Virus record (IMG/VR): IMGVR_UViG_3300006735_005316
Coordinates: 1-22,769 of that record
DNA from: a virus
Length of the DNA: 22,769 nucleotides
Direction: 5' to 3' (one strand)
Of the stretch, positions 1 to 20,154 are shown one piece after another. The translations under genes were made by a program, and so were the position numbers. Under the pieces are notes generated by a model. It was given only the letters and a program-made list of their open reading frames with translations, did no database searches and was not told the origin of the DNA. Position 1 is the stretch's first letter. Every line of letters starts with the position of its first letter.

Positions 1-3000
1 TTACCATAGTCCAATACAACATTTCTTGCCAGTGCTGCTGCTTCATTTATCTGCACACCATCTTTAATTGCATTAAAGAATACTGCTTCACGCATTGCTT
101 GGTCTGCACCATTTGCCCAATGTGCATACGATGGCGTTCTACCGGTCGTGACAGCATCTAACATTTGCACATATAGGTTACGGCCTGTTTTTGGCATACC
201 TTGTGGGATGTTTAAGCTGTAAGTTCTGGCAGCTGCTTTGATATCATTAACCAAAGTCTCACCTAATTGTAATGCACTTTGTGAGCGACCTGTATTGTTT
301 TCTAACAACAAGTCTTGTGCTCTTCTGTATGTTATTGCTTCACCAGTTCTGGTTGTAAAGAATACATCATCAGCTTTGCCAGTTCTTATTGCCTGTCTAA
401 TCAATTGGTCAGGTGTCATCTTAACAGTTCCAAGCGACATAACACCAACACCAATTCTACCTTGTTGCCTCATAACTGTGTTGAGATAATCAGGTGCTGT
501 TACACTTGATATTAAAGGTGCAGTTATAATGTTTTCTGCCTGATATGGCACGTTTGGTAAAAATTTACCAGCCAGCTGACCAGATACAATGTTACGTCTT
601 AAACCACGAGTTATCATTCCTAAGTCACTAAGCAATTTACCCATAAATGTCGGGTCACGTCTTCTTACATCATAAAAGCTTGCACTAAAACCTGAGTAGT
701 TATCCTTCAATGCCAAAGCACCATAGTCTGCTTGCAATCTCATTAACAAGTTTCTTGTATATCTGTCTGTAACTGCAAATTCTTTTTCACCAACACGTAA
801 CAATACTGCTTGTATTTGTTGCAAGAATTCTGCATCATTCATATAACCTGCTGCAATACCACTTGTTTGCAAGCCGGCAGTATATGAAAATGGTGATGAG
901 CCAACTATTTCACGTAACGCATCATCAAACAAGTAAGGTGTCATTGCTTCACCACCATCACCTAATACACCTCTAAACATTTCTGATGGTGATTGTGGTA
1001 TGTCTAATTCTACAACTGCTTCGCCGGCACCTGCTCTACTTCTTCTTATGTTTTGTGTTCGGCCTGCATTATCACGTATTTCGTCCATTAACTTACGACC
1101 AGGTCCTGCTTTTACACTATTCATAAATTTGTCAAAGGCATTATATAATGCTTCATCAGGTGTAATGTCACCATACTTCATTATGTTTTGTGTTGTTGCA
1201 GCTATAAGTTCTGCACGTGCTTGTTGTCCTGCTGATGTTGCAATGTAAGTATTAACTTGTCTATTGATTATAACAGCAGGATTTCTTATACGTTCAAAGC
1301 TTTCCAATGTGCGTGGTGCTACATCACCTAATTCTTCAAATGCTGCAGCGTTTTCAAGAGGATGTCCTTTCGGAACTCTTGCTATTTCTGTAAGTTGCAC
1401 CTCTTGTGCTAAATCTGTCTTTGTAATAAAACCTACGCCACCACGATTAATTTCATCAGCAATTACACGTTCTACAATTTTATCTCTTGACTTACCAAAA
1501 ATATATTGTATGACTGCAGTTTCTACATCTGCTGGTGCTGCACCTAAGAACCTTGCGCTTTCAAGAGAAGCCTGATTAATTACTTCGCTTTCTCTCATTG
1601 TAGGTGGCAAGCTATCGATAAATGCATTTATTCTTGCTGTGCTAAATGCGTCTTGTGGTCCTAACTGGCTTTGCATATTGATTGGGTTCATTTCAAGAGA
1701 CCTGCTACGTTCTACACCTGTCAATGTTCTCATACGTTCAGCTGATATTCTTGTTTGTATTTCAAATGCTTCTCTAAATTTTTCATTAAATACAATTAAG
1801 TCTGTATCTGTTTTAATGCCTGGTCCAATATAGTATTTAAGCATTTCATACAAACCAATATTTAGCTTGCCACTTTCTGTGCCTAACTCATAAACTTCTC
1901 TTTCAACTCTTGCACCTTCTATACCAGCTATTCTACCTGCAATATCTTCCATCTCTTCTGCTTGCTTTAATGCAATGTTTTCCAACGCTAATGTATCTGC
2001 TGCATCAGGAGCTGTAAGTTGTGCAGATTTTAATTCTAATTCAGATGCTTCAAAAGCTTCACGTAATTCTACCTGTCTATCTTTTAGTGCCCTTAATTCT
2101 GCTCTTGATGCTTCAGGTATTTCACTTCTTATTGCTGGTTGTGCTAATTCATCCAGCTCATCAACCAAACGACCTGCATCTCTTGCAAAATCCATTGGGT
2201 CACCACCACGTGCTGCTTGCCTGAACATATAACTAAATACTAATTCTGCACCTGCTTCGTCACTTCTACCTGTAAGATTTCTTGCAGCACCTCTTGATTT
2301 TAGTTCTGCACGTAAGCCACTAACTGCATTGAAGAAACCATTATCTAAAGCAGCAATACCTTCTTCAATACCTCTTGCTGTGCTGTTTGCCCATATTTGT
2401 GTAGGTGGATTGGTAAAACCTTGATACTTTCTTCTTGTTACTTTTTCTACAAAACCTTTTGCAATTGGCACCAATACATTTTCTTTGGCTGCTTTAACAA
2501 CTGTTTTTGCACCAATCATTGTGCCTTCGAATATACCTTCACTAAATAGTCTTCTACCTTGTGGCTCAAATGCACGTGTTGTTACAACACCACTTGTAGC
2601 TGGTCTTATTATATCTGCACGTGGTATCATATCTGTTGCTATTGCTTCTGCTAATTTTTCTGCAACAATTATACCTTGTCTTTCTGTAAGTGCAAGGTCA
2701 CCTACGTGGTTACGTAATAATTCACCAACTGGACCACTGAAGTTTGCATTGCGTTGTCTAAGAAACTGCAAACCTTCTTCAGTAAGCATCATTGGTTTAT
2801 TAATATCATCAGGATTTGGTAACAAGTATTGTTTTCTTGCATTTGCTATAGCTTCAGATAATTTAGGCCACATTTCTTTGAAAGCTTTCTTTGATACTAT
2901 AAGTCTGCTTGTAAGTGGCACATAGTCTGCATAAAACGTATCGCCTAATTGTTCTTTAACTGCATTAACATATGGATTTGGTGCATCACCAAGTGCGCGT

Positions 3001-5330
3001 TCCATTCTAAATTGCATTAATTTTTCTGCTGTTGCTTCACCTTTTGCATAACCTTCGAATGCTTTTATTTCTTTTTGTGCAGTCTTGCCAAGACGTCCTG
3101 CGATACCTTTCTGTTGTGCTAAGGTATTTATAAGGCGACCAGCTTTGGATGCATCTATGCCATAATCTGCAAGGCGTGTCGCACCTCTTGTGCTTAGCCC
3201 TAAAGCTGTATCAATCAGGTCCTCATAAAACTGGCCAACATTGTCTGCATAGCGCATTGCATATGAGTTTGCATCCAGCACTTCATCTGCATTTACACGT
3301 AAAAATACATCAACATCAATATCTTCTGCTAAACCTGCTGCTCGAATTGGTTTGTCTAAGTTTGCACGTCTTTTTGCAATGTAAATACTTTCTTTAATTG
3401 GGCTGTCAATAAACTGACTTGCTCTTGTTTGCACATCATCTATCTTTTTACCACGTGCTTCAACAGCTGCCATTCGTTTTTCTAATGTTCTTTTTCTTGT
3501 AAATATTGCGTCAATTTCTGTATCAATGGCTTTATACTCAGGACTACCTACAGCTTTTGAATTACGTGCTCCAACCAAACTATCCATTCTGGTGGTTAGC
3601 TCATCAATCTGTGCTTGCCTTCCAACAGCAGTTGATGGTGTTGTGCCTGTTGCAAGTGTTTTACCACGTTGCGCACGTCCTATATCAATAGCTTTATCAC
3701 CTAATTTAAATGCGGCACCTGTTCCTTTTACTGCAAGTTTTGGAACTGCTGTTACAGCACGAACATATTTTGTTGGGTCAATTGGTATTAATAATTCTGT
3801 TACCAAACCACCAATACGAACTGTTGTTTCATAATCTTCTGGCACAGCTGACATAGAAGCAATGTCATCACCAAGCGTTCTCATTGTGGCTATTTCATAT
3901 GCTGTTGTTTTAAAGTAATCTTCAAACACACCTGCATTTGGCAATACAACCGTCTTACCCCTAGCTGCATCTTCTTTTCTACCCATAGGTTCGACTGCAA
4001 TAAAGCCAATATCACTATCATCTAATGCTTCTCCTGTGTAGGGATTGACATCATATGTTACAGCTTCTTTTACAACATTAACCGGCACACGAACAATACC
4101 ACCAATATCTCTTACCAGCGCACCTGCCATAGTTTCTGTAATTAAATCAGGGTCTTCCAATACACCAACATATTCTAATGCACCACGTATTCCAGTTACA
4201 TCTACTTGATTTGTTAAAAAGCCACGATGTAATGCATCACCCCAAACCTTGAAGAACATACCTTCTTGGTCTGCTTCAATACCAAATGCTGCTCTTTCTG
4301 CTGGTCGCTTTTCTTCTTCACGATATTCATCAGGAAAATTGTTTTGTAGGAACTGCATATAAATGGCTTTGGCCAACATATCAACTTCTTCAGCTGATGC
4401 TAATTCTATTGGCTTACCTGTAAATTTACTGTAATTACTTCTTGCCTGTGCTTTTGCTTGTCCTTGTTTGTCATTAAAAAAGTCTGTATATACTTGACCA
4501 CGTGCAATATCAACATCTTCATACTTACCTGCATTTGTATCACGTATTGCAATATCTTCTAATGTTTTGAGGTAACCTTCTCTTACTTTTCTTTTCTGTC
4601 TTTGTTGTTCTGTTTCAAGAACCTGAGGTTTGGCAGCATCATACATTACTTCTAATGTGCCCATCTCTTCTATTTCAGCAGGTGTTTTACCTCTTAAGCC
4701 TGCACTTTGCATTGATGGTGCCGGTGTGCCATATTCTGCAGCTGCACGTGGTCTTCTGGGTGATTGATTTGGGTCATATATGGTTTCATAGGCCAGTTTC
4801 TCTGCCCATTCATATTCCTGCAGTGCGACCCTTCTTGCATCAAAATATTCTTGCTGTTCGTCCGGGTCAAAAGCAAACGGATTATATCCAGCTTCATTAA
4901 GTCTTGTATCTACTTCATTCAATACTTCTTGTTCAGACATTTCACCAGCTGTAATAAAGTCTTGCACTAATTCATTATATTCTTTAATTTGTGCTTCATC
5001 AAGCTGCTCTTTACTTATACGTTTGTATATACCTGTGCCTTCACCAAACTGTGTCAAACCTGGCAACAGAACCTGAAAGCCTGGGTCACCAAACTGTGGT
5101 CCAATTGTAGGTAAAGTTTCTTCAAGTGTTTCTGGTTCTTTTGGCTCAGGTGGTGGCAAAACAACAGGTTCTGCAGGTGTAGTCTTTGGTGCATTTCTTA
5201 GCGTAAAGTCTGCTGCCTGTTGTTTCTTATTGAAGTAAGAGCTACCAAGACCACTATCAAAATTAAATTGTATAATATATTCTGCGTAGTCCTCGTCACT
5301 CATCCATTCTGGTTGAGGATTTGGGTCCAT
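1..5330 (-). CDS. Very large phage protein, probable internal virion/ejection protein (3' end beyond window)
   Basis: The frame is open from an ATG at 5330 to the left edge, giving 1776 codons plus two bases, so the C-terminus is missing. The ATG directly follows the TAA of the upstream gene, with an AGGAG Shine-Dalgarno site inside that gene's end. Residues about 49-75 form a Pro/Glu linker. The rest is mostly helical, rich in Ala, Glu, Arg and Lys, with amphipathic or hydrophobic stretches near residues 505-545 and 935-960 and a coiled-coil-like stretch near 1070-1100. The last visible residues (REAVFFNAIKDG followed by EAAALARNVVLDYG, about 1743-1776) resemble a motif I associate with large phage polyvalent or virion proteins; this is from memory, not from a search. 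Position as the last gene of the tail/ejection block supports a role as an ejected internal protein. I see no peptidase, lysozyme or polymerase motif in the visible part. Confidence 0.85.
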   Translation of the reverse strand, partial: MDPNPQPEWMSDEDYAEYIIQFNFDSGLGSSYFNKKQQAADFTLRNAPKTTPAEPVVLPPPEPKEPETLEETLPTIGPQFGDPGFQVLLPGLTQFGEGTGIYKRISKEQLDEAQIKEYNELVQDFITAGEMSEQEVLNEVDTRLNEAGYNPFAFDPDEQQEYFDARRVALQEYEWAEKLAYETIYDPNQSPRRPRAAAEYGTPAPSMQSAGLRGKTPAEIEEMGTLEVMYDAAKPQVLETEQQRQKRKVREGYLKTLEDIAIRDTNAGKYEDVDIARGQVYTDFFNDKQGQAKAQARSNYSKFTGKPIELASAEEVDMLAKAIYMQFLQNNFPDEYREEEKRPAERAAFGIEADQEGMFFKVWGDALHRGFLTNQVDVTGIRGALEYVGVLEDPDLITETMAGALVRDIGGIVRVPVNVVKEAVTYDVNPYTGEALDDSDIGFIAVEPMGRKEDAARGKTVVLPNAGVFEDYFKTTAYEIATMRTLGDDIASMSAVPEDYETTVRIGGLVTELLIPIDPTKYVRAVTAVPKLAVKGTGAAFKLGDKAIDIGRAQRGKTLATGTTPSTAVGRQAQIDELTTRMDSLVGARNSKAVGSPEYKAIDTEIDAIFTRKRTLEKRMAAVEARGKKIDDVQTRASQFIDSPIKESIYIAKRRANLDKPIRAAGLAEDIDVDVFLRVNADEVLDANSYAMRYADNVGQFYEDLIDTALGLSTRGATRLADYGIDASKAGRLINTLAQQKGIAGRLGKTAQKEIKAFEGYAKGEATAEKLMQFRMERALGDAPNPYVNAVKEQLGDTFYADYVPLTSRLIVSKKAFKEMWPKLSEAIANARKQYLLPNPDDINKPMMLTEEGLQFLRQRNANFSGPVGELLRNHVGDLALTERQGIIVAEKLAEAIATDMIPRADIIRPATSGVVTTRAFEPQGRRLFSEGIFEGTMIGAKTVVKAAKENVLVPIAKGFVEKVTRRKYQGFTNPPTQIWANSTARGIEEGIAALDNGFFNAVSGLRAELKSRGAARNLTGRSDEAGAELVFSYMFRQAARGGDPMDFARDAGRLVDELDELAQPAIRSEIPEASRAELRALKDRQVELREAFEASELELKSAQLTAPDAADTLALENIALKQAEEMEDIAGRIAGIEGARVEREVYELGTESGKLNIGLYEMLKYYIGPGIKTDTDLIVFNEKFREAFEIQTRISAERMRTLTGVERSRSLEMNPINMQSQLGPQDAFSTARINAFIDSLPPTMRESEVINQASLESARFLGAAPADVETAVIQYIFGKSRDKIVERVIADEINRGGVGFITKTDLAQEVQLTEIARVPKGHPLENAAAFEELGDVAPRTLESFERIRNPAVIINRQVNTYIATSAGQQARAELIAATTQNIMKYGDITPDEALYNAFDKFMNSVKAGPGRKLMDEIRDNAGRTQNIRRSRAGAGEAVVELDIPQSPSEMFRGVLGDGGEAMTPYLFDDALREIVGSSPFSYTAGLQTSGIAAGYMNDAEFLQQIQAVLLRVGEKEFAVTDRYTRNLLMRLQADYGALALKDNYSGFSASFYDVRRRDPTFMGKLLSDLGMITRGLRRNIVSGQLAGKFLPNVPYQAENIITAPLISSVTAPDYLNTVMRQQGRIGVGVMSLGTVKMTPDQLIRQAIRTGKADDVFFTTRTGEAITYRRAQDLLLENNTGRSQSALQLGETLVNDIKAAARTYSLNIPQGMPKTGRNLYVQMLDAVTTGRTPSYAHWANGADQAMREAVFFNAIKDGVQINEAAALARNVVLDYG

Positions 5331-17135: not shown

Positions 17136-17681
17136 CTATGACATACGTGACATTAATAAATCGTCTTCTTCACCTTCTGGTGCTTGACGAGTTGGTGCTT
17201 CTGTTTCGACTTCTACCTTTATGGCATCAATTCTCATATCATCTTCACCCATTGGTTTTGCAAGAAAGGCTCGAAAAGCCTTGTCTTTTGAATATGCAAG
17301 TAGCTTACCTGCCATTTCTTTTAAATCTCTATCACTACTTATTTCACTCATTGCCATTTGTTCGTCACCTGAGTAGTCACTATAAGCAGCCAGAACCATA
17401 CCAAGCTTACGACTAATAGCTTCTGGCATAGCACCATCTATTTTTTCAGTAACTTGTTCTTCTGGTTCGGCACCTGGAAATAATTTAAGTGCTTCGTTTA
17501 GTCCTTTGATAAATGTATTTGTTGCACTTGCACTAAATTCACCTTCTGGTGCAATTGCTTGAAACATCATTCCTTCTAATTTGTCGGCTTGTTGTGCCAT
17601 TTCGTCCATATTTTCTGGTTTTTCTAATGGTTGCTCACGTTCCATAAGCTCCATTGTCATTCCATCTCTTTCTTCGGCCAT
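17136..17681 (-). CDS. Acidic protein of unknown function in the head module (181 aa)
   Basis: I do not recognise the family. The protein is acidic and Met/Glu-rich, mostly helical, with the segments EKPENMDEMAQQADKLEGMM and DRDLKEMAGKLLAYSKDKAF. It ends in a Asp/Ser-rich tail (EEDDLLMSRMS). I place the start at the ATG at 17681 because a GGAG site lies 6 bases before it. A TTG four codons upstream (17693) is also open, but would put that GGAG inside the coding sequence. The gene ends with TAG 9 bases before the scaffold ATG. In related phage maps this slot, between portal-side genes and scaffold, often holds small head or assembly proteins of unknown role. Confidence 0.75.
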   Translation of the reverse strand: MAEERDGMTMELMEREQPLEKPENMDEMAQQADKLEGMMFQAIAPEGEFSASATNTFIKGLNEALKLFPGAEPEEQVTEKIDGAMPEAISRKLGMVLAAYSDYSGDEQMAMSEISSDRDLKEMAGKLLAYSKDKAFRAFLAKPMGEDDMRIDAIKVEVETEAPTRQAPEGEEDDLLMSRMS

Positions 17682-17697
17682 TGTGTTCTCCAATATT

Positions 17698-17727: not shown

Positions 17728-17847
17728 TTTTTTTATTTTATCTGACTTACCACAAAGGTGGCAAACCGGTTTATCTGCTTGAAACTTAAAGTTGCATCTG
17801 AGACAATGATATATAGGTATGTATAAATCACTCTGCAGCTTTATCAT
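17716..17847 (-). CDS. Small zinc-ribbon protein (43 aa)
   Basis: A short frame starts at ATG 17847, within the end of the upstream FmdB-like gene (20-base overlap), and ends with TAA at 17718-17716. An excellent AGGAG site lies 7 bases before this ATG. The 43-aa product has two Cys pairs: CLRC at residues 15-18 and CHLC at 29-32, ten residues apart, followed by GKSDKIKKLTK. This CxxC-x10-CxxC spacing is that of a zinc ribbon. The protein is basic at its end, which would suit nucleic-acid or protein binding. Such a short gene is easily missed by size cut-offs. It is the second zinc ribbon in a row, after the FmdB-like protein. Function is unknown. Confidence 0.72.
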   Translation of the reverse strand: MIKLQSDLYIPIYHCLRCNFKFQADKPVCHLCGKSDKIKKLTK

Positions 17848-18439
17848 CTAACGCTCCTGTTTCTTTCATATGTTCTACAGAAAATGCTTCTGCAATTGCA
17901 CGTCCATCATCACCGTGCTTGTCAATACTATCCTTCATTCTTTTCATAGCATCTTCGTGTAAGGTTGCTTGCTTAACTTGCTGATTGAAACTATCATCAA
18001 TCATATTTGACCAAGCTGCACTACCACCAGCTACTTCATCTGCTGGCACCAGTCCTTTTGCTTTTGCCTTTTTTCTCATATCGGCATCCGAATACACCAC
18101 ACAACCAAGTCCCTTGTTGTATGTGCCATTTACACCATATTTTCCTGTGCTTTCCCAACTGCTGTGTCTTGCTGGCACACTTACTTTGCCTACAACCTTG
18201 CATTTTTTACCACATCCTGGACAACCGTTGTCCCACCATTCTTCTATACTACTTTGAAAGTAATCATCTGAAGTGTAATAATCACTTCTAAGTTTTAAAT
18301 TATCTATTACGTCTGGGTCGTCCCAGGCTAATTCTTTGTTAAATAACTTCATTCGCATATGAACATCATAACTTACGCGTGTTATGACATCCTCTATGTA
18401 ACCACAGTTACTACAACTAAATGAGTATGCTGCCGTTAT
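17828..18439 (-). CDS. FmdB-like zinc-ribbon protein, apparent ATA start (203 aa)
   Basis: With the start at ATA (18439), the N-terminus reads TAAYSFSCSNCGYIEDVITR, with the first zinc-ribbon pair at Cys9 and Cys12. The second pair is CPGC at 73-76 after a 60-residue insert. A later stretch (NGTYNKGLGCVVYSDADMRK) matches a motif I know from phage FmdB-like proteins found near portal genes. The first in-frame ATG (18358) would remove the first Cys pair, and no ATG, GTG, TTG or CTG lies between them; an in-frame TAG sits just upstream of the ATA. An AGGAG site stands six bases before the ATA, which overlaps the portal stop (ATAA, four bases). The alternatives are a minus-one frameshift from the portal frame, or a sequence variant of ATG. 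Its role in the virion or cell is not known. Confidence 0.75.
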   Translation of the reverse strand: MTAAYSFSCSNCGYIEDVITRVSYDVHMRMKLFNKELAWDDPDVIDNLKLRSDYYTSDDYFQSSIEEWWDNGCPGCGKKCKVVGKVSVPARHSSWESTGKYGVNGTYNKGLGCVVYSDADMRKKAKAKGLVPADEVAGGSAAWSNMIDDSFNQQVKQATLHEDAMKRMKDSIDKHGDDGRAIAEAFSVEHMKETGALDDKAAE

Positions 18440-20154
18440 ACGTTTCTCCTACCTCGTAATCCGAGATTAGCTGGCCCAATAGGTGCCACTTGTTGCGCAG
18501 TTTGCTGAATTGCTTCACGAGCATCTTGCCCGACTTCGACGGCTCCTGCATCCGCCGCTGTTACGTTAGCCATTTGAGCTGCTTGAGCCTGTTCCATTTG
18601 AGCCTGCTGCATTGCTTGCTGTTGTTCGATAGCAGTCATTGTTTCTTCCACTATATAATCCGGTAGGCCAAGTGTGTTGATTAACTCCTTGACCAACGTC
18701 GTTTGCGGAACGCCTAATCCTTGTAATAAGGGGATAGACTGTATAAATTCACGCTTACGAACTGTTTCTGAAATAGGTGTAGAAGCAGCATCAACTGCAA
18801 ATACGTAAAAGTTTTCGTTTAAATCATCAGGTGTAATAACAACTGGCTTGGCATCAACAAACACCAAGTCTCTTATGTTGTCTTCATCAAGATATAAAGC
18901 AATCATTGCTAAATAACACTTAGCTATTTTCTCAATTGTTTGGTCTCTTTCTCTCGCAAGGCGACCAATTTCTGTGCTTGTGTATGCAGCCAAAGCAGCG
19001 ATTTCAGTTGCGCTGGCTCGAGTGCTTTCCCCACGGGTAAATGGGGCCAATATGCTTCCTTTATCTTTATCATCTTGCACCTGCCTGTAATAAATTTCTA
19101 ATTCTGGTGGGGTGGGATTTTGAGGTAGAGGACGAATAGCACCAGCAAGGTCATCATCGTCAATTTCAACAAATAAACCATCAATGCCGCTTGTAATTTG
19201 TGCAATCTGTTCCTCATCTAATATCCCCTTCTTTACAATATATTGACGTGAAGCCTTACGAACTGCATTAGCCTGAAAGGTTCTTATCATATTTATTTCA
19301 AATAACTGGTCATATATTCTGGACATTGCTGCATAACCAATCATTGGTCTATCCGGCAGCCTGTTGAAGAAGAGCGGTATAATTGGAACAACTGGATTGT
19401 TGTCTGCATCTCTGAAAGGTATGGGTGATTTGTCTAAGAACTTAGTTGCACTCCATTGTTCAGACCAAAAATACAACATATCATTTTGTAGGTCATAAAA
19501 TTCTACAACTTCAATGTATTTAAACATCTTAGCATCACTATCAATATCTGATTGTTCGTATGCACCTTCATCTTCATTCATATAATTGTCGAAGTATTGG
19601 TCATAACTTACACCTGTATATTGCTTGGCACCAAAACGTGCTTCTGCTGCAGGAAGTGACATATAATATACGTGACCTACATAACGACTATCTTCCCAAC
19701 GTAGTGCATCTCTATCTGCAATAACATTCCAAGGTGCTACAGGTGTTAAATCAACACGATTGTAGAGGTTTGGGTCATCCTTTGGAAACATCTTGATGTA
19801 AGCATTAGGATAAATTAATGCCAAACGTGACGCATCTTCTACTGGTTGCCGCTGTTTGGTAAGAAAATCATTGGCTAATGCTTGTGCTTTCTTTGTATCA
19901 CCTGTGCCTTTCAAGCCGTTCTTAACAACAACCCCAGGGTTCTTGGTGAATAACGAGCTTATGAAGCTTTCTATGTAGCCATATCCGTCTGATGTTTGAA
20001 CTGTAATACCTGCATTAGTATCTAAGTCATCCCAAAAACGGCATTCATAGGCACGTTTGTATTTATACATATCACGTTTTTGGTCGTCCCAATATCTCTT
20101 GTGTGCTTGCACTACCTGAGATAAGACACCTGGTGTAACGTTATATCTTGCCAT
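18436..20154 (-). CDS. Portal protein (572 aa)
   Basis: The portal forms the dodecameric ring at the packaging vertex. The protein starts with a helical segment (residues 8-45) and has the mixed alpha/beta wing typical of podovirus portals. The stem/clip region is around residues 270-330 (IPLFFNRLPDRPMIGYAAMS, then YDQLFEINMIRTFQANAVRKA). GESTRASATEIAALAAYTSTEIGRLARE near 385-412 is the usual helix after the tunnel loop. The C-terminus is Gln/Ala-rich (about 515-560), like the barrel helix of P22-type portals. The gene starts one base after the terminase stop, with AGGAGG eight bases upstream. Its TAA overlaps the ATA of the next gene. Size (572 aa) is in the normal range. Confidence 0.92.
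   Translation of the reverse strand: MARYNVTPGVLSQVVQAHKRYWDDQKRDMYKYKRAYECRFWDDLDTNAGITVQTSDGYGYIESFISSLFTKNPGVVVKNGLKGTGDTKKAQALANDFLTKQRQPVEDASRLALIYPNAYIKMFPKDDPNLYNRVDLTPVAPWNVIADRDALRWEDSRYVGHVYYMSLPAAEARFGAKQYTGVSYDQYFDNYMNEDEGAYEQSDIDSDAKMFKYIEVVEFYDLQNDMLYFWSEQWSATKFLDKSPIPFRDADNNPVVPIIPLFFNRLPDRPMIGYAAMSRIYDQLFEINMIRTFQANAVRKASRQYIVKKGILDEEQIAQITSGIDGLFVEIDDDDLAGAIRPLPQNPTPPELEIYYRQVQDDKDKGSILAPFTRGESTRASATEIAALAAYTSTEIGRLARERDQTIEKIAKCYLAMIALYLDEDNIRDLVFVDAKPVVITPDDLNENFYVFAVDAASTPISETVRKREFIQSIPLLQGLGVPQTTLVKELINTLGLPDYIVEETMTAIEQQQAMQQAQMEQAQAAQMANVTAADAGAVEVGQDAREAIQQTAQQVAPIGPANLGLRGRRNV

Follow-up and report, generated by a model that had tools for sequence, protein, structure and literature searches.

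An apparent ATA start of a portal-adjacent zinc-ribbon gene very probably reflects a single T-to-C change, ATG to ACG, at the following codon

The window (the whole stretch of viral DNA that was analysed, 22,769 nucleotides) carries a portal protein gene and, directly after it, a gene for a small FmdB-like zinc-ribbon protein. The features at and around the junction of the two genes are as follows.

18436..20154, minus strand: portal protein gene, 572 aa (PHROG 156 portal protein, E = 3.3e-12); its stop overlaps the zinc-ribbon start
17828..18436, minus strand: FmdB-like zinc-ribbon protein gene, 202 codons plus stop, assigned by open frame and homology
18449..18451, minus strand: in-frame TAG, created by a window-private C-to-T at 18451 that is silent in the portal gene
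18446..18450, minus strand: Shine-Dalgarno (SD) sequence AGGAG, 9 bases before the very probable start position and 6 before ATA
18437..18439, minus strand: ATA triplet proposed as the start, made of the last base of the final portal GTA and the TA of TAA
18434..18436, minus strand: start codon position by alignment to relatives, ACG in the window
18356..18358, minus strand: internal ATG, the first canonical in-frame start left in the contig and an unlikely initiator

The 3' end of the portal gene reads AGG AGA AAC GTA TAA on the minus strand, with the stop TAA at 18438-18436, and the zinc-ribbon frame over the junction reads TAG GAG AAA CGT ATA ACG GCA GCA TAC TCA. The first-pass annotation placed the zinc-ribbon start at ATA (18439-18437), with AGGAG six bases upstream and an ATAA overlap with the portal stop, and it noted a CxxC (CSNC) upstream of ATG 18358 that pairs with a later CPGC downstream. 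All of these elements were found on the minus strand as described. It also took ATA to be the only plausible initiator. On the minus strand of the window there is indeed no in-frame ATG, GTG or TTG from the TAG (18451-18449) to 18358, but the next codon, ACG, had been missed, and it aligns with the ATG of the relatives. The predicted anti-SD duplex at AGGAG has an energy of −8.0 kcal/mol in both haplotypes, compared with −0.9 kcal/mol at ATG 18358.

Apart from its start, the zinc-ribbon gene is intact in the window and its product is the same as that of the relative L001. Two CxxC pairs are present in the window and the close relatives, and only the first is invariant across the aligned sequences (8/8). 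Matches to TIGR02605 were weak (18.2 bits for L001 and 28.7 bits for L047), both lying below the curated cut-off of 31.3 bits, and PHROGs gave no significant match. By its sequence, the portal-adjacent protein is FmdB-like, short of confirmed membership of the FmdB family. An AlphaFold model was of such low quality (pLDDT 44.7) that a zinc site could not be recognised in it. The gene lies directly 3' of the portal gene in every relative where the site was readable, and from this position one might guess at a role in the virion or in head assembly. Our literature search found no paper combining FmdB, portal protein and phage.

Further features were observed in the protein family and in another gene of the window. 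A motif YGVxGxxNxxLG is conserved in the second half of the protein in all relatives (for example L050:1697-2158 and L047:3499-4017), and the spacing between the cysteine pairs is very variable in length among them. The proteins of L004:2650-3252 and L003:2374-2979 diverge strongly in the N-terminal half and are nearly identical in the C-terminal half, a pattern that looks like intragenic recombination. The gene at 17136-17693 on the minus strand was listed with a TTG start that lacks an SD (+1.8 kcal/mol); its start is more likely the ATG located four codons downstream (ENTMAEERD).

To compare the start region, relatives were collected from the viral collection. A search with the zinc-ribbon protein gave five close relatives (L001-L005), and a portal-based search added the more distant L047, L050 and L051, making eight relative contigs in all. 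Homology in the zinc-ribbon gene was full-length to the five close relatives and partial to the other three. No match was found at the protein level among named phage records with either the zinc-ribbon gene or the portal, and no relatives were found in bacterial and archaeal genomes. The nearest relatives, L001 and L002, are about 99.9% identical to the window in DNA sequence, L001 being 99.9% identical over 5 kb. L002 lies within a 30.6 kb record (G001), which the whole window matches with 40 substitutions and no indels.

All five close relatives (5/5) have the sequence AGGAGAARCGTATAATG: they keep the ATA, but their next codon is ATG and not the ACG of the window. L051 also has ATG as its zinc-ribbon start (GTATAATG), so that the one-base stop/start overlap TAATG is shared by the five close relatives and L051. 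The start in L047 is ATG (MPFYEFKCKECEY), and that in L050 is GTG, overlapping the portal stop as TAGTG. The window alone has ACG at 18436-18434, every relative having a canonical start, and comparison with outgroup contigs showed that the base at 18435 (T-to-C) is derived in the window. Start codons of the other genes with comparable starts were unchanged between the window and its relatives. The TAG had been taken to exclude a longer open reading frame. It is present, but it is private to the window: the relatives have C at 18451, and the change to T, silent in a portal glycine codon, is derived. The upstream open frame of the relatives nevertheless holds no other canonical start.

The alignment indicates, with little room for doubt, that the evolved start is the codon after ATA and that this contig carries a single T-to-C change, ATG to ACG. 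The relatives keep ATA although they start one codon further on, which indicates that the triplet is a by-product of the GTA-TAA end of the portal gene and not an evolved initiator; no separate function has to be assumed for it. The first-pass annotation had asked for homologous loci to be aligned at this codon and had offered a strain variant of ATG among its explanations. It was right as to the kind of event and misplaced the codon: the variant is the ACG at 18436-18434, and the relatives keep ATA and have their ATG one codon later. Judged from these comparisons, the apparent ATA start is accounted for by a plain point variant or an error in the sequence, and no new mode of initiation is involved.

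Whether the phage itself carries ACG is a separate question. The ACG could have come from a mistake in sequencing or assembly, or from a minor variant that entered the consensus, with the actual phage having ATG; this bears only on the reality of the variant and not on where the gene starts, and we consider it a serious possibility with slightly less than an even chance. The ACG version was absent from all other contigs of the viral collection, where a search for further copies returned only unrelated DNA, although such searches may not cover records that closely match the window. Two window-private changes, at 18435 and 18451, fall within 17 bases, which would also suit an error. Against this, the 40 differences from G001 comprise 31 synonymous, 6 non-synonymous and 2 non-coding changes and the one start change, with no indels and no stops, whereas 40 random changes would be expected to give about 11 synonymous changes, 26 non-synonymous changes and 1.3 stops. 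Since the differences are mostly synonymous, the contig is reliable overall and its divergence genuine, which leaves single bases unproven. The chance of a start-destroying change among 40 random ones is 6.6%, so one real change of this kind would be unremarkable. On balance a real variant seems somewhat ahead of an error, as a matter of judgement and not of calculation. In the same comparison, a frame at 3-5330 on the minus strand, at least 1776 codons long and running off the left contig end, was found to be a real large gene, as nearly all of its differences from G001 are at third codon positions.

Other accounts of the start were weighed against the same alignment. Translation of the variant could truly begin at AUA and give a protein one residue longer. 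AGGAG lies six bases before ATA, and AUA starts are known in bacteria, for example infC and ccpN of Staphylococcus aureus, at about 10-30% of AUG (PMC13009471). The portal end, however, already explains the triplet, the relatives pass over it for the ATG of the next codon, and nothing favours ATA over ACG as the codon used. Instead of a conserved or proven AUA initiator, the five relatives show ATA followed by ATG, with the SD at nine bases. AUA initiation, the headline reading of the first-pass annotation, is improbable. A minus-one shift from the portal frame, its other suggestion, would make use of the overlap of the two frames at the portal stop. The junction (AGA AAC GTA TAA) contains no slippery heptamer, and such a shift is unnecessary because the gene of the relatives has its own SD and ATG; we give it practically no credence. 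A start at ATG 18358 in this contig is also very unlikely. It is the first canonical in-frame start, but it has no SD and would lose the invariant first CxxC.

With the start placed at the codon after ATA, the evolved ATG would overlap the portal stop as TAATG and use the AGGAG located nine bases before it as its SD; its translation would probably be coupled to that of the portal. One-base and four-base overlaps, the most frequent types between genes, show such coupling (PMC10666635). Among non-AUG starts, GUG, UUG and CUG have been measured at 58.4%, 29.8% and 0.86% of AUG (PMC11497404); our literature search found no measurement of initiation efficiency for ACG. If ACG is real, initiation in the variant would be weak and translation of the zinc-ribbon protein would probably be strongly reduced. 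Some product could still arise by residual initiation at either of the two neighbouring codons, ACG and ATA, through the conserved SD and ribosomes finishing the portal gene. A wild lineage in which the ATG-to-ACG change is fixed, with low expression from an AUA-ACG near-cognate pair through portal coupling, is conceivable and on the whole unlikely.

No compensating changes were seen near the start. The C-to-T change at 18451 slightly stabilises a hairpin that includes the 5' portion of the SD, from −13.6 to −15.8 kcal/mol when the start codon is ATG and from −15.1 to −17.3 kcal/mol when it is ACG. As the hairpin is slightly more stable and the anti-SD duplex is unchanged, this change is not predicted to rescue initiation. 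The first 26 codons differ from those of L003 by 4 synonymous and 6 non-synonymous changes, too few to test selection.

One supposed example of AUA initiation in phages is thereby struck from the list, having been produced by a lone derived base in this contig. The case illustrates that gene callers can truncate an N-terminus when a start codon is altered at one position; the part at risk here contained the first CxxC of a zinc-ribbon protein.

The close relatives resemble coupled TAATG gene pairs in having a one-base overlap with an upstream SD, from which coupling is suggested; the window differs in that the codon at the overlap is ACG. The protein shares the N-terminal M-x-x-Y-x-F-x-C-x-x-C with the FmdB family (TIGR02605 / Pfam Zn_ribbon_8, PF09723), and the N-terminus of L047 (MPFYEFKCKEC) is near the family pattern. 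It departs from the FmdB model in not reaching the curated cut-offs, in the distance of about 60 residues from one cysteine pair to the other and in a long extra C-terminal part. The AUA genes infC, ccpN and citZ of S. aureus (PMC13009471) have a near-cognate triplet with an upstream SD, as at this locus. The difference is that infC and ccpN use AUA as such and citZ does so in a lineage-specific manner, whereas the relatives of the window initiate at the ATG that follows.
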